Below, piece by piece: positions 6,484 to 16,938 of a DNA stretch of 21,576 nt; position 1 is the stretch's first letter, and the number at the start of each line of letters is the position of its first letter. Both the position numbers and the translations under genes were made by a program. This DNA comes from a virus: positions 1-21,576 of IMG/VR virus record IMGVR_UViG_3300030451_003776. The stretch is one strand, 5' to 3'. The notes under the pieces were generated by a model, which was not told where the DNA came from, made no database searches, and saw only the letters and a program-made list of their open reading frames with translations.

Positions 6484-7044
6484 GTGAAACTACGAGACTA
6501 TCAAGAGCAGGTTGTCGCTAGTGTGCTTGGCTGCATGAAGCAAGGATTTAAAAGCAGCCTCAATGCAATCTTTACAGGTGCAGGGAAGACAATAATATTT
6601 TCTACTTTGGCTAGTAGAATTTCAGGTCGGACATTAATTATTGCACCTTTGAGAGAACTAGTATGGCAAGCCGCAGATAAGGCTCGTGCTATTGTTGGTG
6701 AGGACGTTGACATTGAGATGGCTGAGTACAGCGCTCCAACTCGGAGTGAGTTTGTTATTCCCAGCAAGGTAGTTGTGGCTTGCAAGCAGACGCTACTGAG
6801 TGGCCGCAAAGACAGTAAGCGATATAGAAAGTTCAATGACTTTCAGTTGGTTATCGTGGACGAAGCACACATGCAGTGCAGTGATGCGGTGGTTGAGATG
6901 CTAACGTACTTTCAAGAGCAAGGGGCTCATGTCAGTGGGTTTACAGCTACGCCATTCAGGATGGATTCTAAACCAATGCTAAAGGGGGGAGCATGCGATT
7001 TTACGAATGCGTCACAGCAAATTATGGAATTACATGGGGAGTAG
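6484..7044 (+). CDS. SF2 DEAD/DEAH helicase, N-terminal RecA domain (first part of split gene)
   Basis: 186 residues starting at GTG 6484, with GAAAGGGA just upstream. Motifs in order are LRDYQ (Q-like, residues 3-7), Walker A TGAGKT (31-36), APLRELVWQ (motif Ia, 54-62), VDEAH (motif II, 125-129) and FTATPFR (motif III, 153-159). These define the first RecA-like domain of an SF2 helicase, similar to RadD/YejH-type DNA-dependent ATPases. After residue 169 the frame leaves the homologous sequence and stops 17 codons later. The expected continuation (linker and second RecA domain) is in the -1 frame and starts at the same place. Alone, this product could bind ATP but should not unwind. Either a frameshift joins the two halves (about 525 residues) or the gene is broken. 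Confidence 0.85.
   Translation: MKLRDYQEQVVASVLGCMKQGFKSSLNAIFTGAGKTIIFSTLASRISGRTLIIAPLRELVWQAADKARAIVGEDVDIEMAEYSAPTRSEFVIPSKVVVACKQTLLSGRKDSKRYRKFNDFQLVIVDEAHMQCSDAVVEMLTYFQEQGAHVSGFTATPFRMDSKPMLKGGACDFTNASQQIMELHGE
6981..7011 (+). other. Candidate -1 ribosomal frameshift site in helicase gene
   Basis: In the upstream frame the codons read CTA AAG GGG GGA GCA. Two X-XXY-YYZ heptamers overlap here: A-AAG-GGG (6981-6987) and G-GGG-GGA (6984-6990). A slip back by one base after GGA continues as AGC ATG CGA into the frame that encodes the second helicase domain. A possible hairpin follows at once (GCAT-G-CG, loop ATTTTA, CG-A-ATGC, 6991-7010), closer than the usual 5-8 base spacing. A six-G run is also a classic indel or sequencing-error site, so the sequence cannot decide between recoding and error. 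Confidence 0.45.
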
Positions 7045-8060
7045 AAAATGGTTATGTGGCCCCACCCAATAAACTGGTTCTCGCTCAGTTATCAGGACTC
7101 GACCTCTCAAAAATCAAAATTGTTGGAGGAGACTACCAGCAAACCGAGTTGCAAAAACAACTTAACAAAGAGGCAAACTTGCACAGGCTGTGCCTCATTA
7201 CAAAAGAGTACATGGGCAAAGCAACAGTCGTATTCACCGCAAGTGTATCGGCGGCTAAAGGAGTAACGCATTACTTAAAAAACAACTACGGCATTCGAGC
7301 TGGGTATGTGCATGGCAAACAAGATTCTGAAGAGCGTACTGAAGTTATTAATGATTATAAGCACGGGCGTATTGACGTTCTCGTCAACGTCGCTGTGTGT
7401 GCTACCGGCTTTGATGCACCAAGGACAGACACTCTCATTCTTGGCAGGCCCACTCGCAGCCGTGGTTTTTGGCTACAGTGCGTTGGTCGCGCTACTCGTC
7501 CTTTACCTGGCGTGGTCGATGCTACAGGACTAACAAAGGAGCAGCGCATTGAAAGAATCGCAAAGTCTGACAAGCCGTTTTTTACAATCGTCGATTGCAC
7601 GGATGCTTCTTTGGATCACAAACTTATTACCAGTGTTGATATGTTTTGTGACCTTACTGAAGACCAGCGAAAGGCTGCTCGGAGGATTTGTAGCAAGTCC
7701 GAATCTCCTCTCACGCCTGCTGAGATTGAGGAAGCTGCAAGAATTGAAGCAGAAAAAATTGCAGCAGCAAAAGCCATCGAAGACATGCGAAAGAAGTCAG
7801 CAGGCGTTGCTAGCGGAAAACTGCATTCCTCTGAACACGAACTCGGTGAGGATGGAAAGCGTTGCGTTGGAACATACCGTAATCCTCTCAAAGGAAAGTA
7901 CGCAGGACGACAGTTAAATGAATTGCCTTCATACTATCTTGAGTGGGGTGCAGGCAATCGCAAGCTGGTGCATTGGATAAGAAACTTATACTTAAAAGAA
8001 TTAAGGAGACGAGATGCAAAAAACCTTGAAGCATACAAACGAAAGTACGCCTCACGATAA
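6993..8060 (+). CDS. SF2 helicase, C-terminal RecA domain (second part of split gene)
   Basis: The -1-frame continuation of the helicase. It starts with the inter-domain segment (YGITWGVENGYVAPP) and then carries the second RecA-like domain: ATVVFTASV (motif IV region), VHGKQ, LVNVAVCATGFDAPRTD (motif V) and QCVGRATRPLPG (motif VI with arginine fingers). A Glu/Ala-rich helical stretch follows around residues 235-265, then a C-terminal region with YLEWGAGNRKL. ATG 6993 has GGAG only one base away, too close for efficient initiation. This favours fusion to the upstream part over independent translation, with the joint product read through from base 6990. The role in phage replication or recombination is inferred from the family. 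Confidence 0.82.
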   Translation: MRFYECVTANYGITWGVENGYVAPPNKLVLAQLSGLDLSKIKIVGGDYQQTELQKQLNKEANLHRLCLITKEYMGKATVVFTASVSAAKGVTHYLKNNYGIRAGYVHGKQDSEERTEVINDYKHGRIDVLVNVAVCATGFDAPRTDTLILGRPTRSRGFWLQCVGRATRPLPGVVDATGLTKEQRIERIAKSDKPFFTIVDCTDASLDHKLITSVDMFCDLTEDQRKAARRICSKSESPLTPAEIEEAARIEAEKIAAAKAIEDMRKKSAGVASGKLHSSEHELGEDGKRCVGTYRNPLKGKYAGRQLNELPSYYLEWGAGNRKLVHWIRNLYLKELRRRDAKNLEAYKRKYASR

Positions 8061-8721: not shown

Positions 8722-8927
8722 TATTTAGAAAAGCACGAAGACACTTGCGTCGAAACAACATGACTTACGTCCAGCATTTTAGGTTTGCCTTTCGGCACGG
8801 CCTGCGATGTCTACTAGCCGGAGTGTTTCTTATTGTTCATGCCATCTGTCCAGCTTGGTTTCGTAGAGTTGGCTCACGACTTGTGAACAGGTTAGCTAGA
8901 GACTTTACGTTGCATAGAAAAAAATGA
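8718..8927 (+). CDS. Small membrane-associated protein, DUF6356-like
   Basis: The sequence TYVQHFRFAFRHGLRCLLAG, then VFLIVHAICPAWF and RVGSRLVNRLARDFT, matches the small-protein pattern of DUF6356 ('Y..Hf..A...g..ll.ag...iHa..P..f...gs..i..L'). It has one hydrophobic segment (about residues 31-46) flanked by basic residues. GTG 8718 overlaps the preceding stop; ATG 8760 is the alternative and would give a 55-residue protein starting MTYVQHF, which fits the family start better. Neither has a clear Shine-Dalgarno sequence. Function unknown; the family name is from memory. Confidence 0.6.
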   Translation: MIFRKARRHLRRNNMTYVQHFRFAFRHGLRCLLAGVFLIVHAICPAWFRRVGSRLVNRLARDFTLHRKK

Positions 8928-9067
8928 GTATTGGACTTGTTGCAGTTACAGGATTAATTTACCTTTACGTTTCCATTGATCAATTCCAAAAAGGAAATTG
9001 GCCAATGGGTGTCACTTACTTCGCGTATGCATTAGCCAACCTTGGTCTAATGTTCGCGGTTAAATAG
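8924..9067 (+). CDS. Very small two-helix membrane protein (47 aa)
   Basis: ATGA overlap with the preceding gene. The product has two hydrophobic segments (SIGLVAVTGLIYLYVSI and GVTYFAYALANLGLMFAV) joined by a short polar turn (DQFQKGNWPM), typical of small hairpin inner-membrane proteins in phage early regions. It is too short for a typical holin but that cannot be excluded. It is the last gene before the 350-base non-coding stretch. Confidence 0.65.
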   Translation: MSIGLVAVTGLIYLYVSIDQFQKGNWPMGVTYFAYALANLGLMFAVK

Positions 9068-9195
9068 CTTTGCAGTTTGACCTGTCGGTTGCAAAGTTAA
9101 ATCGGTTGACAGGCGGAGGCTCTCCGCAAGGAGGGATTGACGGGACGCAGCATGACCGAGAAGGCAAGCCCGAAAGCCAGATAGCCTAGCTGCAA

Positions 9196-9209
9196 ACAAT
9201 CGCGATTGT
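9196..9209. repeat. Perfect 14-bp palindrome
   Basis: ACAATCG/CGATTGT is a perfect inverted repeat without a spacer, as expected for a dimeric protein binding site, in the middle of the non-coding stretch. A second, shorter perfect palindrome (TGTCGCGACA, 9233-9242) lies 24 bases further on and shares the TCGCGA core. Confidence 0.6.
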
Positions 9210-9231
9210 AAAAGAAGTTGGCAAGCTGAAG

Positions 9232-9261
9232 TTGTCGCGACACTTTAGCCGACCGTATACT
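9232..9261 (+). promoter_or_regulatory. Candidate sigma-70 promoter within the non-coding region
   Basis: TTGTCG (9232-9237, 4 of 6 matches) is 18 bases upstream of TATACT (9256-9261, 5 of 6). Transcription would begin near 9268, just before the folded segment 9272-9349, giving a leader of about 150 bases for the nuclease gene at 9416. The -35 element falls in the TGTCGCGACA palindrome, a possible operator. Moderate to weak by itself. Confidence 0.35.
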
Positions 9262-9269
9262 GAATACTC

Positions 9270-9372
9270 AAGCGAGCAAGAGGTGTGGGTCAGGGGGTCA
9301 CTTCGCTAGATTCAAAGCTAGCGTTGGGACTCTCTCCCTACCTTCTCGCAGCCAGAAGCCTAAGCGAGCAAG
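9270..9372 (+). repeat. 11-base direct repeat flanking its own complement
   Basis: AAGCGAGCAAG occurs at 9270-9280 and 9362-9372. A single CTTCTCGC-type complement (CTCGC 9345-9349) lies between them, so the two copies can compete for the same partner. A second imperfect repeat pair, AGCCAGATAGCCTA (9175-9188) and AGCCAGAAGCCTA (9350-9362), is also present. Confidence 0.6.
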
Positions 9373-9415
9373 TGTTAGTGTTTTAAGTATCAAGCTTGTA
9401 CTAGCAGGAGTATCA

Positions 9416-9910
9416 ATGAGTCAATGGATTGACTTATCTGGTAACTGGGAAAGGATTGCCCAGCTTGACCAAGAGCGTCAGGAGCAGAAGAAGGATTACA
9501 AGTCCGGGCTGCACCTGAGCAAGCAAAGCACATGGCTGATAGGACTATGCGGTGAGTACGCCGTATCGTCCCTGTGCGGCCAATCTGTAGACGAGGCACT
9601 GAAACCACACGGCGACTCTGGAATCGATTTCAGGTGCGATTTCGGAACCGTAGACGTAAAGGCTAGCACTCGCCTGCGAGATGCTGACCTCGTTTTGTTT
9701 CCCAATCAAAAACATTGGGCTGATTTCTACATACTCGTTTCTGTTGACGTTGAAAGAAAACGTGCTCGTATCTGTGGCTGGGCGACACTGGATGAGATAC
9801 GGGCGGGCGAATTGCATGACTATGGCTATGGCCAGCGGCTTCGGCTGAAAGAGCAATGCCTGCACCCAGGCATCGTACCTAGTATGGAATTCTTTAATGA
9901 AATGCAGTAA
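9416..9910 (+). CDS. PD-(D/E)XK-type phage nuclease
   Basis: 164 residues. A catalytic core of the PD-(D/E)XK type is visible: Glu47 in CGEYAVS, Asp71 in SGIDF and the D-x-K pair Asp80/Lys82 in VDVKAST. A strand-rich region with WADFYILVSVD and ARICGWATLDEI follows, a layout shared with restriction-endonuclease-like phage proteins. The first 40 residues are a charged helix. The start has GCAGGAG 6-10 bases upstream. It is the first gene after the structured leader and opens a run of nuclease genes. The substrate is unknown: it could be a host-DNA nuclease or a repair enzyme. Confidence 0.75.
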   Translation: MSQWIDLSGNWERIAQLDQERQEQKKDYKSGLHLSKQSTWLIGLCGEYAVSSLCGQSVDEALKPHGDSGIDFRCDFGTVDVKASTRLRDADLVLFPNQKHWADFYILVSVDVERKRARICGWATLDEIRAGELHDYGYGQRLRLKEQCLHPGIVPSMEFFNEMQ

Positions 9911-12226: not shown

Positions 12227-12555
12227 TGGCAACTGTAGTTCAGATTACTCGATGGCTTCTGTCTCATAGAGAAGCCGCAATGAAGATATACGAGTTAACA
12301 AAAGAGTGGAGTCAGGATTTAAGCGTGGCTCAGAAGTGGGCCATCGTAAACAGCGTGGCTGAAATTGTTCTGCCACTACTTGAAGGGGCGAACATCCTCA
12401 GTATAGATGCTGACTTTGATTACGATGATGATGTTGAATTGATGGCATTGGGCAGTGAGGTATCTGCTTTAGGAATACCTTGGATTGCTGTAACATCTAT
12501 ACTGATACCAGTGCTTCAAATAATATTCGACTTTGTTCAGAAAGAAGGAGAGTGA
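12226..12555 (+). CDS. Membrane-anchored hypothetical protein (109 aa)
   Basis: TAATG overlap and GAAGGAG give a clear start. The N-terminal two-thirds are helical and soluble-looking, with an acidic patch (DADFDYDDDVEL, about residues 61-72). The C-terminus has one hydrophobic helix (IPWIAVTSILIPVLQIIFDF). It is directly upstream of and overlaps the subtilase gene, so it might anchor, chaperone or inhibit that protease. Holin-like function is possible, but one C-terminal membrane helix is not diagnostic. Confidence 0.6.
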   Translation: MATVVQITRWLLSHREAAMKIYELTKEWSQDLSVAQKWAIVNSVAEIVLPLLEGANILSIDADFDYDDDVELMALGSEVSALGIPWIAVTSILIPVLQIIFDFVQKEGE

Positions 12556-13430
12556 GCTTAGTTCACCTCCCGCCATACCGATTAGAATTCGGGCCTAGTG
12601 CATTACACCTTGGAGTAGATTGGGGAGTCTCCTGCTACGGAGTCCCTGCTCTGTGGCACAGGACCGAAGGTGCGGGTGCTACTGTTGCAGTAATTGATTC
12701 TGGAGTTGCAGACCACAAGCACTTGGAGGTTGCAGACCATCGCAACTTTACAAGCGACTCCGAGCATACTGATACCCTTGGTCACGGCACTCACGTAGCA
12801 GGCATTATTGCTAGCACGGGAGGTAGGTATCGTGGCATTGCCCCGAAGGCAAGAATACTTTCACTAAAGGCTTTAGGCCATAGTGGATTTGGGAGTAACA
12901 CTCACGTTGCTCAAGCTGTTCATCATGCCGCAGATGTCAATGCGGATATTATCTGCATGAGTCTCGGCGGACCAACTCAGAGCGAGGAGGTTAGCGATGC
13001 TATTAAACAGGCTCGTAAGAAGGGGGTGATCATTGTCTGTGCAGCGGGCAATGATGGAGGGTCAGTTAACTGGCCTGCTGCACTTCCGGAAACTGTAGCT
13101 GTTGGAGCTGTAAACAGCGAAGGCCAAGCGTGTGAGTTTAGTTCTCGTGGCAGACAAATTACTGTTGCCGCACCCGGAGAACGAATAACAAGCACATGGC
13201 TCAATAACGATTACGCTACTTTGTCTGGCACAAGTATGGCAACTCCGTTTGTCGCAGGTGTGCTGGCCCTCTATGTCTCCGCCTGGAAAGGAAGAGACGA
13301 CCGCCCCAATTGTTTCGACGTTCTTCGTGAGACCTGCACAGATGTTGGCGAACAAGGTCGAGACAGTTTGTATGGGTGGGGTTTAATTGATCCAAAGAAA
13401 ATTATTGAAGGAGACAGGACGTTCCTATGA
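12552..13430 (+). CDS. Subtilisin-like serine protease (S8 family)
   Basis: 292 residues from GTG 12552 (GTGA overlap with the preceding gene). A complete subtilase triad is visible: Asp49 in VAVIDSGV, His78 in GHGTHVAGI and Ser228 in SGTSMATPFVAG, plus the oxyanion Asn167 in AAGND. The length equals a mature catalytic domain: no signal peptide and no obvious I9-type propeptide, so it probably acts in the cytoplasm or in the virion and folds without the usual prosequence. GGAG is only one base from the GTG, so initiation probably depends on coupling. Possible roles are cleavage of host proteins, processing of virion proteins or counter-defence; none can be shown from sequence. It is not a typical phage prohead protease. 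Confidence 0.92.
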   Translation: MSLVHLPPYRLEFGPSALHLGVDWGVSCYGVPALWHRTEGAGATVAVIDSGVADHKHLEVADHRNFTSDSEHTDTLGHGTHVAGIIASTGGRYRGIAPKARILSLKALGHSGFGSNTHVAQAVHHAADVNADIICMSLGGPTQSEEVSDAIKQARKKGVIIVCAAGNDGGSVNWPAALPETVAVGAVNSEGQACEFSSRGRQITVAAPGERITSTWLNNDYATLSGTSMATPFVAGVLALYVSAWKGRDDRPNCFDVLRETCTDVGEQGRDSLYGWGLIDPKKIIEGDRTFL

Positions 13431-13666: not shown

Positions 13667-14067
13667 TGAAGCACATCATATTAGTCGCCGCTGTGCTCTA
13701 TGCAGCATACACATTCCTGCCATCATCCCCTGCCCCAGTAGCCAAGACAGGACCAGTGGCTGATGCTCTAAGGAATGCTACTCCGAAAGACAAGCAGACA
13801 GTAGCAAGCATCTACGATTCCCTTGCGGACATCACTGAGCGTGACGGTGGCGAGAGAATACCAACTACCGCAGCGTGGCGAGAGATGCATCAAACTGCAT
13901 TAGGACTTAGCGTTGGTGGTACAGACCTAGTAGGTAAGTACGATGGCCTCGATGATGCGGTTGAAGAAGTACTTCAGAAACATGTGTCGCTCGACAACGT
14001 AGCACTGTCAGGTGTAGCTGATGATTTAGTCAAAGCTTGCAAGGAGATAGCAGACAGTGCCAGATGA
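13666..14067 (+). CDS. Secreted or membrane-anchored protein of unknown function (133 aa)
   Basis: The start is ATG 13666 (TAATG overlap, AGGTGA upstream); longer forms would begin inside the preceding gene. The N-terminus is MKHIILVAAVLYAAYTFLPS, a signal peptide or single anchor, with a possible processing site after residues 18-24. The rest is helical and acidic (AVEEVLQKHVSLDNVAL, ADDLVKACKEIAD). It resembles small phage proteins with a TM anchor placed before large enzymes. It overlaps the start of the cysteine-protease gene, so it may cooperate with that enzyme at the membrane. Confidence 0.6.
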   Translation: MKHIILVAAVLYAAYTFLPSSPAPVAKTGPVADALRNATPKDKQTVASIYDSLADITERDGGERIPTTAAWREMHQTALGLSVGGTDLVGKYDGLDDAVEEVLQKHVSLDNVALSGVADDLVKACKEIADSAR

Positions 14068-15001
14068 ATTTAGGATTAAAGAACTCGTCAAACAATATGA
14101 GGACGGGTTGCCTGGTTATATCGAAGATGAGGTTGCTCGAGCAGAGTATCTTAGTTCTCAGGTTGAGCCATACTTTGCTGAGTTTAATTTGCTTGGCAGT
14201 GGTAAAGGCAAACGTGCTTTGCTATGGCAGTACTACATGGCATTTGATAAAGGTGCTATGTCCGAACGACAGACTACTGGGGACTGTGTATCGCATGGAT
14301 CACGCAATGCCCGTGACATAGCACGTTGCTGTAGGATACTAGTAAACAAAGAACCTTTTGACTATTACAAAAGAGGTGCAACTGAGCCGACCTATGGAGC
14401 ACGAGGTCACTCTGGCCAAGGCATGTCTCCAGCTCGAGCATCTAGATTTGAGAGAGATACGGGGTATTTGGTTAGAGAGAAGTACGAGCCATGTGACCTG
14501 ACAAAATACAAGAGTAGTATTGGAACTGGTTGGGGTAGAGGTGGTGTCCCTGAAGATGTCAAAGAGTTGTGCAATAACCAAAAAGTAAATCACATCAGGT
14601 TAGTCAAGACACAAGACGACTTGATGGATGCGATGATCAATGGTTACTGTGCTCACTCAGGCCAGCAAGCAGCATGGTCTGCAACTCCTAACAGTAAGAA
14701 TGTACACCCACGAAAAGGGTCGTGGAATCACGACATGTGTATAGCTGGGTACGACGACACAAAAGAATTCTGGCCGTTTCGTGTTTGGTTCATCGCCAAC
14801 TCGTGGGGTGCTTGGAATAAACCAGTAAAAGATTGGCCCTCGTCATACCCGAAAGCTCCACCAGGGTTAATCGTTACAACAGCAGAAGACTTCGATGTAT
14901 GTGTGCGGAGTCAAGACTGCTGGGTGTACGGTGGGGTTGATGGATTCCCTCCACAAAAGCTGCCCGACTTTGGAACTATAGGAATGCTGAGTGATGATTG
15001 A
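14057..15001 (+). CDS. Papain-fold (C1-like) cysteine protease
   Basis: 314 residues from GTG 14057 with AAGGAG 10 bases upstream. A complete papain-type active site can be read: ERQTTGDCVSHG with Gln72 (oxyanion) and nucleophile Cys77; GSWNHDMCIAGYDD with His225; and WFIANSWGAWN with Asn248 (NSWG). The central part (about residues 105-165) is Gly-rich with GARGHSGQGMSPARA. There is no signal peptide or propeptide. C1 peptidases are uncommon in phages. Beside a subtilase in the same overlapping gene row, it suggests a dedicated proteolysis module. Targets are unknown: host surface proteins, immunity proteins or peptidoglycan cross-bridges. Amidase or peptidoglycan hydrolase activity is an alternative for papain folds. 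Confidence 0.85.
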   Translation: MPDEFRIKELVKQYEDGLPGYIEDEVARAEYLSSQVEPYFAEFNLLGSGKGKRALLWQYYMAFDKGAMSERQTTGDCVSHGSRNARDIARCCRILVNKEPFDYYKRGATEPTYGARGHSGQGMSPARASRFERDTGYLVREKYEPCDLTKYKSSIGTGWGRGGVPEDVKELCNNQKVNHIRLVKTQDDLMDAMINGYCAHSGQQAAWSATPNSKNVHPRKGSWNHDMCIAGYDDTKEFWPFRVWFIANSWGAWNKPVKDWPSSYPKAPPGLIVTTAEDFDVCVRSQDCWVYGGVDGFPPQKLPDFGTIGMLSDD

Positions 15002-15492: not shown

Positions 15493-15716
15493 ACATAGAA
15501 GTAGAGATACTAGCTGTACTGCTAGCTGGTTTGCTGGCTGTAATACCTTGGGCATTTTCCATACATGCCAAGGTAGCTCTTATAGCGCAGTCAGTAGAGG
15601 CGTTGCCTGAACTCATAAAAGAGTTGCGGGTTAAACTAGACCAACACGAGACACGGCTTGATGCCCACGAAAAAGAAATCCAAATTATCAAAGTCAAGAC
15701 AAACTCTGGCGATTGA
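15489..15716 (+). CDS. Membrane protein with coiled-coil tail (75 aa)
   Basis: GTG 15489, with GGGAG upstream and GTGA overlap. One N-terminal hydrophobic helix (VEILAVLLAGLLAVIPWAFS) is followed by a long amphipathic/coiled-coil helix (ELIKELRVKLDQHETRLDAH) to the end. This build occurs in haemolysin-XhlA-like and spanin-like phage proteins as well as other small anchors. A lysis role is possible but no endolysin is recognised nearby. Confidence 0.6.
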   Translation: MNIEVEILAVLLAGLLAVIPWAFSIHAKVALIAQSVEALPELIKELRVKLDQHETRLDAHEKEIQIIKVKTNSGD

Positions 15717-16326
15717 TTACATGCCACTGGTCAGGATGCTGGCCAGATATTTCGTAGCACAAAGACCTGCATGGCAGAAAGCAGCAATGCTGCCTGACCT
15801 TGAGGGCGAAGGATATCTTGCGTTATCTAAAGCTGCTCAGACATACGACAAGAAAAAACTGCCGTATCCAAAAGCCTACTTTGCTCGAGCCATACTGAAT
15901 GCTATGTGCAAGTTCATGAAGAAGGCTACCCGAACGCCTGGAGAAAAGGTTACGCTTGCTCAAGCTGAAGCATCGCAGCCTGTAGAAGACGAGCTGGATC
16001 ACTTGATGCTGGCAATCAACCAGCTTAATCCCAGTGATCAAGAGTTTGCGTACCAAAGATTTGTTGAGAACCTGACGTTGAGAAAGATATGTGAAATCAA
16101 CGACACTGCCATGAGGATAGTGTCTATGAAGAATCGGAGACTAGTGAAGGAGATTGCGGGACTTTTGGAAATCCATCTTTCGCCGCCTTGTAAAGACCAT
16201 ACACATCAGGCTTGTGATAAATCCCAGAAGACTTCCGTTGACACACAGGCTTTCTCACCCCTGCAAACTTCAACTTTAAAACTATTTTCTCGAAAGACAG
16301 ACCGTCAACCTCATGGTAATGAATAA
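15661..16326 (+). CDS. Sigma-70-family RNA polymerase sigma factor
   Basis: 221 residues from ATG 15661 (TTG 15658 adjacent; ATG 15721 would remove 20 basic residues). Region 2 is clear: YMPLVRMLARYFVAQRP, LPDLEGEGYLALSKAAQTYD, KAYFARAILNAMCKFMKKATR. Region 4 follows: INQLNPSDQEFAYQRFVENL then TLRKICEIND and MRIVSMKNRRLVKEIAGLLE, a helix-turn-helix. It lacks regions 1 and 3, like phage and group-4 sigmas. It probably directs host polymerase to late or middle phage promoters. The last ~50 residues, beyond GLLE, have no sigma features and lie antisense to the recombinase, so they may be only a read-through tail. Confidence 0.8.
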   Translation: MPTKKKSKLSKSRQTLAIDYMPLVRMLARYFVAQRPAWQKAAMLPDLEGEGYLALSKAAQTYDKKKLPYPKAYFARAILNAMCKFMKKATRTPGEKVTLAQAEASQPVEDELDHLMLAINQLNPSDQEFAYQRFVENLTLRKICEINDTAMRIVSMKNRRLVKEIAGLLEIHLSPPCKDHTHQACDKSQKTSVDTQAFSPLQTSTLKLFSRKTDRQPHGNE

Positions 16327-16873
16327 TCAGGGCGGCTATCTCGCGTTCCTTTTTATTCTCTTTGTACTTCCTGCCTTTTACTAACCAACCGAATGGTCTT
16401 GTTGGTCCGTATGGTGTCTGCTCTCGATACCCCGTGACTGCTACTCTATGCTGACTATCTCCGTCAGTCCTGCTTCGCATCTCGTCAAACACGCCATACA
16501 TCTTCTCTTGCAACCACTCAGTTGTGTTCTGCCTGCGTTGTGGTTTCTGTGGAGCTTGGCCTAGAATCTGTAGGGTAATGCCTTGGTTGTTCCATGCTTC
16601 CCTAGTCTCTGTCCTGTCACTGTCCTGTCTCCACAGACGGCTGTAAGATACAGCTATCACAGTATCGCCTTGGGTTAGTGCGTCGTGCATCCTCCTACCA
16701 CTGGGCCTGTCTCGCAGCTTAACCTTAAACGCAGACACGCCATCGTCTACATACACGCCACCCCACTCGTCGTCGATGCTCTTTGCGAACTCTTCTAGTT
16801 CTTTGATTTGATTAGGCAAAGAGGTAGCTTGGTCTGGCTTGTCAGTAGAAACCCTGGCGTAACCGTATATCAT
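16124..16873 (-). CDS. Serine recombinase (resolvase/invertase family), short form
   Basis: 249 residues. The catalytic domain shows YGYARVST with Ser9 as nucleophile, YVDDGVSAFK, RDRPSGRRM and VIAVSYSRLWR; the last replaces the usual DRLxR by SRLWR but keeps both Arg. A C-terminal recombinase-domain-like part follows: YGPTRPFGW, LSFEKIVLKLKFAG and VYGLYKAAKDG. It is longer than gamma-delta resolvase yet lacks the zinc ribbon and coiled coil of large phage integrases. The start is ATG 16873: GGAGG is 9 bases upstream and the codon forms ATGA with the preceding 22-residue gene; ATG 16882 abuts the ribosome-binding site. It may act as DNA invertase, resolvase or integrase. The last ~67 codons overlap the convergent sigma-factor gene. 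Confidence 0.85.
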   Translation of the reverse strand: MIYGYARVSTDKPDQATSLPNQIKELEEFAKSIDDEWGGVYVDDGVSAFKVKLRDRPSGRRMHDALTQGDTVIAVSYSRLWRQDSDRTETREAWNNQGITLQILGQAPQKPQRRQNTTEWLQEKMYGVFDEMRSRTDGDSQHRVAVTGYREQTPYGPTRPFGWLVKGRKYKENKKEREIAALIIHYHEVDGLSFEKIVLKLKFAGVRKPVCQRKSSGIYHKPDVYGLYKAAKDGFPKVPQSPSLVSDSS

Positions 16874-16938
16874 GACGCACATCCTCCGCTAGTGTAAAGA
16901 ACAAACATAATAAACAAGGTGCATATGATGTATTCCAT
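16870..16938 (-). CDS. 22-residue hydrophobic peptide coupled to the recombinase
   Basis: Reads as a hydrophobic segment (residues 4-15) followed by YTSGGCAS. It has GGGAGAGG upstream, forms TAATG with the stop of the preceding gene and ATGA with recombinase start 16873. The perfect overlaps on both sides support translation. It may be a leader that carries ribosomes to the recombinase start, or a small membrane peptide. Its GGAGG-coding codons (SGG) are the ribosome-binding site of the recombinase. Confidence 0.5.
   Translation of the reverse strand: MEYIICTLFIMFVLYTSGGCAS

Follow-up and report, generated by a model that had tools for sequence, protein, structure and literature searches.

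GOLLD and ROOL are large pseudoknotted "ornate" RNAs of phages and prophages that contain kissing loops, form RNA-only oligomers (nanocages) and have no known function. In ROOL one kissing loop was first detected by covariation; tRNA islands are often close to both RNAs, and a length above 800 nt is common in GOLLD (PMC12286853). Here we describe an RNA of about 310 nt encoded in a viral DNA of 21,576 nucleotides (IMG/VR record IMGVR_UViG_3300030451_003776), referred to below as the window. Being a phage RNA with pseudoknots, kissing loops and no assigned function, it is in kind most like GOLLD and ROOL, but it is unrelated to them, all membership tests run having given negative results: it is only about 310 nt long, has no tRNA nearby and matches no Rfam model. 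It joins a small group of large phage RNAs without a known function.

Known families were searched in several ways. With Rfam 15, the regions of the window and of the homologues L103 and L008 gave no GOLLD or ROOL match at the gathering score or at E ≤ 5–10. The whole window had no Rfam match at the gathering score and, at a relaxed threshold, a single match at chance level that falls immediately beyond the stretch considered here; for the window and two divergent homologues no credible match to an intron, ribozyme or other RNA family was obtained. ARAGORN detected no tRNA or tmRNA in the window and no tRNA in L001 or L005. The first-pass annotation of this DNA recognised no tRNA, tmRNA, intron core or riboswitch in the stretch. 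The RNA is previously undescribed, and a short search of open-licence papers yielded no description of it.

Other RNA elements located within operons are the antiterminators HK022 put and EAR. These phage and bacterial elements are far shorter, and their action is confined to cis. The RNA described here shares the location within an operon and differs in size and in having no Rfam match.

Locus and structural elements

The stretch 9068–9415, annotated earlier as gene-free, indeed lies between the stop codon (TAG, 9065–9067) of a 46-aa ORF (8927–9067) and an ATG at 9416, and all three frames of the + strand are interrupted by stops. The elements of the RNA are as follows.

9068–9375, +: whole structured RNA, about 310 nt, ends approximate and 3' end unmapped; homology to L001, L006, L008, L101, L103, L116 and others
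9068–9074, +: 5' strand of stem 1 (S1) of pseudoknot PK1, CUUUGCA, pairing with 9090–9096; also given by the automatic search
9090–9096, +: 3' strand of PK1 stem 1, UGCAAAG; curated table and automatic search
9081–9086, +: 5' strand of PK1 stem 2, CCUGUC, pairing with 9108–9113; four different helices, all paired
9108–9113, +: 3' strand of PK1 stem 2, GACAGG; curated table and automatic search
9114–9118, +: conserved CGGAG, immediately or shortly 3' of the pseudoknot; alignment and leaders
9120–9135, +: hairpin P3, CUCUCC-GCAA-GGAGGG, with a GNRA-type loop; 95% of cells paired across eight helix versions
9147–9151, +: 5' strand of P4, GCAGC, pairing with 9189–9193
9189–9193, +: 3' strand of P4, GCUGC; curated table
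9162–9187, +: P5, AGGC/GCCU, closing the conserved core AAGCCCGAAAGCCAGAUA; near-invariant in all homologues
9196–9209, +: hairpin P7, with loop K7 (UCGCGA, 9200–9205); covariation counts
9210–9217, +: conserved linker AAAAGAAG; alignment
9226–9248, +: hairpin P8, with loop K8 (UCGCGA, 9235–9240) pairing with K7; covariation counts
9267–9280, +: small hairpin P9 and first copy of a motif (GCGAGCAAG, 9272–9280); sequence comparison
9282–9342, +: long hairpin P10; predicted fold and by-eye comparison with L001, L006, L008, L101 and L116, outside the statistics
9364–9372, +: second copy of the motif, GCGAGCAAG; direct repeat, the copies changing in step in L001, L006, L101, L103 and L116

In the DNA of the window the strands of PK1 read CTTTGCA (9068–9074), CCTGTC (9081–9086), TGCAAAG (9090–9096) and GACAGG (9108–9113). 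Taken alone, the window provides limited evidence. Exact 7-mer inverted repeats spanning no more than 130 bases numbered three vs 1.9 expected, and 28% of shuffles did equally well; the interleaved 7+6 pseudoknot arose in only 1.1% of shuffles. The folding energy was slightly better than that of shuffled sequences on the + strand (z −1.2) and showed no excess on the − strand (z +0.75). As this excess was weak in every homologue folded (z from −0.1 to −1.75), it was dropped as a proof of structure. The inverted repeat by itself is near chance level, and the deciding evidence is the comparison with relatives.

The 3' part of the RNA, P10 with the flanking motif copies, was compared by eye only. 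The motif reads GCGAGCAAG at both sites of the window, TCGAGCAAG in L001, GAAAGCCAAGG in L006, AAAGAGGCAGAC in L101, AGAGAGGCAGAC in L103 and AAAGGGCACA in L116; in L008 the two copies have diverged from each other. In most genomes the two copies are thus alike, and they vary from one genome to another, a pattern suggestive of a duplicated binding site.

Homologous sequences and covariation

The set of homologues contains 11 distinct sequences from five divergent lineages, found in IMG/VR phage contigs and in one short contig of a Pirellulaceae MAG. The IMG/VR contig L001 matches the region at 80% identity overall; the genes vary, and large parts of the non-coding stretch show almost no change. 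Judged by this comparison, the RNA changes less than the genes around it. Further contigs were reached through a papain-like protein encoded at 14057–15001 of the window, which served as a lead, and were then searched by nucleotide sequence; this search gave L006 (E = 6e-19), weaker matches in L008 and L009, and a short match at the corresponding position in L007. The protein was assigned by reading its sequence, without a Pfam match; it has hundreds of relatives in viral contigs and none in the phage collection.

The core pattern GCAAGCNCGAAAGN{2,5}ATAGC was then scanned over IMG/VR. The scan gave L090, L098, L105, L101 and L103, together with five near-identical contigs (L087, L089, L097, L100 and L107), with profile E-values below 1e-17. 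A single short match to the pattern in L004 was taken as chance. A covariance model of the core (R1) was built from ten sequences, the window included and L116 not. The search with R1 identified the fifth lineage, L116 (91 bits), in the genome that holds L085 and is recorded as a Pirellulaceae MAG; the window itself scores 115 bits at 9134–9280, being among the sequences behind the model. In the family so defined, the P4/P5 core, P7 and P8 follow each other in order, and K7 pairs with K8 in every sequence including L116. No further convincing copies were found in 241 family-level and 392 phylum-level genomes. Weak model matches were not accepted in L117 (26.9 bits, resembling repetitive coding sequence), in L118 (26.6 bits) and at 7723–7897 of the window (16.9 bits).

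Cultured phages gave no DNA match to the window or to the L103 RNA, and nothing resembling the RNA was found in 50,697 phage records, a collection from which the RNA-carrying phages themselves are absent. The hosts of these phages are probably planctomycetes, given two contigs of one MAG (L085 and L116) and a second MAG, of a Planctomycetaceae bacterium, in which the papain-like protein has a distant relative (L086).

Covariation was counted as follows. An alignment of the core was made by MAFFT without structure, and the hand-made structure was then counted on it. In this alignment 86.5% of cells were paired, compared with 68% after shuffling and 24–46% when the 3' strand was slid; there were 52 doubly changed cells, and 15 of the 25 pairs had double changes. 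In the curated table, where helices of 11 sequences were registered by hand, 459 of 467 cells (98.3%) were paired, and double changes occurred at 37 of 47 positions. When whole strands of this table were shuffled, pairing stayed below the observed level for every helix but the nearly invariant P5, where shuffles occasionally attained it. Since registration by hand favours pairing, the MAFFT figure of 86.5% is the cautious one. When L116 was added in an alignment fitted to the model, 88.6% of cells were paired and 59 were doubly changed.

PK1 was additionally searched for automatically in nine leaders with 200 shuffles each, the CGGAG anchor being the sole prior input. An H-type pseudoknot scored better than at least 199 of the 200 shuffles in eight leaders; the ninth, L087, failed because a wrong CGGAG was used.

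Stem 1 of PK1 is represented by seven different helices in ten sequences, with 99% of cells paired. The pairing of CTTTGCA with 9090–9096 proposed in the first-pass annotation is therefore supported, the helix being conserved and replaced on both strands in L001 (CTTCATA/TATGAAG); its interleaved CCTGTC/GACAGG helix is likewise present as described, with four different versions and all cells paired. The second partner suggested there for CTTTGCA, at 9190–9196, is not conserved, because L001 has TTCATAG and CTGCAAG at these places. In the window 9190–9196 reads CTGCAAA, which is the complement of 9069–9075 (TTTGCAG) and not of 9068–9074, and the alternative was placed where the 3' strand of P4 is found (9189–9193). 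P4 occurs as GCAGC/GCUGC, GAGAC/GUCUC, UCGGC/GCCGA, CCGGC/GCCGG and GCGAC/GUCGC, with the core of conserved sequence (RGGCAAGCNCGAAAGY..AUAGCCY) located inside it; the outer pair of P5 shows a change from A-U to G-C.

Seven different sequence pairs form K7/K8, with 98% of cells paired and double changes at all six positions in the curated table; the helix is supported on the unbiased alignment as well. It is a kissing interaction, in which the six-base loop of P7 pairs with a six-base segment of the P8 loop whose position is almost constant. In L116 the loops are GUGCAG/CUGCAU, which still fit the structure built without this sequence. On these comparisons K7/K8 is the most telling helix, and it was recovered in a lineage on which the model had not been built. 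The palindrome TCGCGA, found twice in the window, is not conserved as a palindrome and is the version of K7/K8 in the window lineage.

The covariation indicates that selection keeps the pairing of PK1, P3, P4/P5, P7, P8 and the P7–P8 helix while the sequence changes, hence a folded RNA is the best account of the stretch. The first-pass suggestion of a structured RNA or an origin is thereby upheld in its first part, with strong covariation across five lineages; the origin received no positive support. The + strand is favoured as the RNA strand because it folds better, has the same direction as the neighbouring genes and uses G-U pairs. Given the consensus, the covariance model and the five lineages, the family is now open to searching, transcription studies and probing.

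Genomic setting and possible roles

In phages the RNA lies between the genes of a DEAD/ResIII helicase and an HNH protein, the latter followed by a PDDEXK gene; in the window the helicase is preceded by SSB and an Erf-like annealing protein. The upstream neighbour across lineages is either the helicase or a small protein predicted to lie in the membrane. In the window, L001, L006 and L008 the gene starting at 9416 comes next after the RNA, and in L101 and L103 the helicase is directly upstream and a different small gene is downstream. Wherever the contigs of a phage lineage extend far enough, HNH and PDDEXK genes are found beside the RNA. The helicase, HNH and nuclease proteins of phages that still keep the RNA are only about 25–39% identical to those of the window. 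As the RNA is kept while the surrounding proteins diverge, it probably has a job of its own; an RNA that outlasts nearby protein sequences, with a pseudoknot and a kissing helix backed by covariation, likely does something the phage needs.

A different setting is seen in the Pirellulaceae MAG contig L126 (G001:C164, 7870 bases), where the RNA is near a 759-aa protein of no known family and a tyrosine integrase (Pfam Phage_integrase). None of the genes of the window is recognisable on this 7.9-kb contig. It is possibly a mobile element with the RNA as cargo, although this is a single short contig and MAG binning may be wrong.

No promoter-like site just upstream of the RNA was found by the scan in the window, L006, L008, L103 and L116; weak candidates noticed by eye in L006 and L008 were not reported by the scan and were discarded. 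On the 3' side of the L006 RNA there is a hairpin resembling a terminator, as well as a promoter-like TTGACA-17-TACAGT.

We consider it somewhat probable that the region from 9068 to about 9375 (+) gives rise to a structured phage RNA of about 310 nt, belonging to a new family, that acts in trans, a mode we infer. The unfixed neighbours and the MAG copy without genes of the window favour an RNA acting on its own, the MAG part of this argument being weak as it relies on a single short contig. The RNA would be transcribed from, or processed out of, the transcript of the phage replication region. PK1 may give the 5' end its fold and shield it, and the kissing helix could lock the middle of the RNA or link one copy to another. 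The conserved core with the duplicated motif would form a surface binding a phage or host partner. In an extended version, which we hold to be rather unlikely, kissing of P7 and P8, whose loops are palindromic in the window (UCGCGA), would produce a homo-oligomer, a compact analogue of GOLLD and ROOL acting in trans during infection by planctomycete phages and present also on integrative elements, with another element (type B, below) filling the same slot in sister phages.

The main rival is a cis-acting mRNA element, since the stop codon of the upstream gene lies next to the pseudoknot or within it. Such a structured 3'UTR or inter-gene leader might stabilise the upstream message, set an RNA-processing site or antiterminate like put and EAR. 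We rate it as appreciably possible, yet on the whole improbable. The RNA is on the same strand as the genes of an operon-like block and tightly embedded between them, and in the window it lacks a strong promoter to itself; as PK1 overlaps the helicase stop codon in L101, L103 and L087, the RNA is at least partly in an mRNA 3' end. However, the flanking genes differ between lineages, one copy is found away from the phage gene block, the RNA of L006 is followed by the promoter-like site and terminator-like hairpin, and the RNA is larger and more elaborate than any antiterminator RNA known to us. Replication provides another setting. An origin, or a primer RNA like ColE1 RNA II, beside the SSB, annealing-protein and helicase genes would suit the location in a replication module and the two TCGCGA palindromes. 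We think this very unlikely, as the palindromes are merely K7/K8 of the window lineage, it is pairing that is conserved and not iterons (none were seen beyond the one co-varying two-copy motif), and one copy is on a contig devoid of the replication genes of the window.

We think it just as unlikely that the RNA is a ribozyme, or a mobile RNA of intron or guide-RNA type, acting together with the endonuclease VII or HNH genes close by. A conserved core with pseudoknots is typical of catalytic RNAs, and HNH and PDDEXK are its constant phage neighbours; against this, the Rfam intron, ribozyme and other families gave no match, no gene is interrupted (the flanking ORFs are complete on both sides), the copy in L126 has no adjacent HNH gene, and HNH relatives without the RNA are present in L085, L010 and L012. 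Hardly any weight is left for a degenerate or permuted tmRNA. Like tmRNA, the RNA has several pseudoknots, and the window contains the pieces GGATTGACGGG, CTCTCTCCCTA and TAGCTGCAAAC, which we take to resemble tmRNA motifs and which occur in the tmRNA order. Unlike tmRNA, it has no tRNA-like domain or conserved tag frame, in line with the negative ARAGORN and Rfam searches; the GGAUUCGACGGG-like and CUCUCUCCCUA-like motifs are lost in L006, L008 and L101, and in L001 the GCA-frame reading that begins at 9192 has a different end. The alignment thus in practice refutes this reading, as the motifs are not kept in relatives.

Other sequences in the same slot and neighbouring genes

In three sister phages the slot upstream of the endonuclease VII/HNH genes is occupied by another, unrelated conserved non-coding sequence of about 250 nt, termed type B.

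L005:5120-5485, L013:1-318 and L016:931-1290: copies of type B, in the same slot

The L005 copy has a good promoter-like site upstream (TTGACT-16-TATTAT) and no Rfam match. Type B was rejected as a diverged member of the RNA family, given no match by profile or covariance model. Only one of 55 predicted pairs shows a double change, and with three sequences covariation is too thin for a structure to be claimed. Further non-coding stretches in this slot, at L010:5300-5640 and L012:5430-5800, match neither family; by eye, that of L010 has short motifs in common with type B. A promoter-like site recurs just past the slot, before the nuclease genes (L005:5485-5512, L006:3287-3315, L010:5644-5672).

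The DEAD/ResIII helicase of the window (6484–8060) is encoded by two overlapping ORFs in different frames, 6484–7044 and 6993–8060. The split is similar in L005 and L006, and L101 and L103 have one ORF; either the gene is truly split or the overlap marks a site of recoding, both being possible. Downstream, the window encodes a subtilase-family protease (12480–13430) and, on the − strand, a serine recombinase with a Resolvase domain (16124–16882). The latter overlaps, at a switch of the coding strand, the end of an oppositely directed gene (15658–16326, +) with a weak match to sigma-70 region 2.
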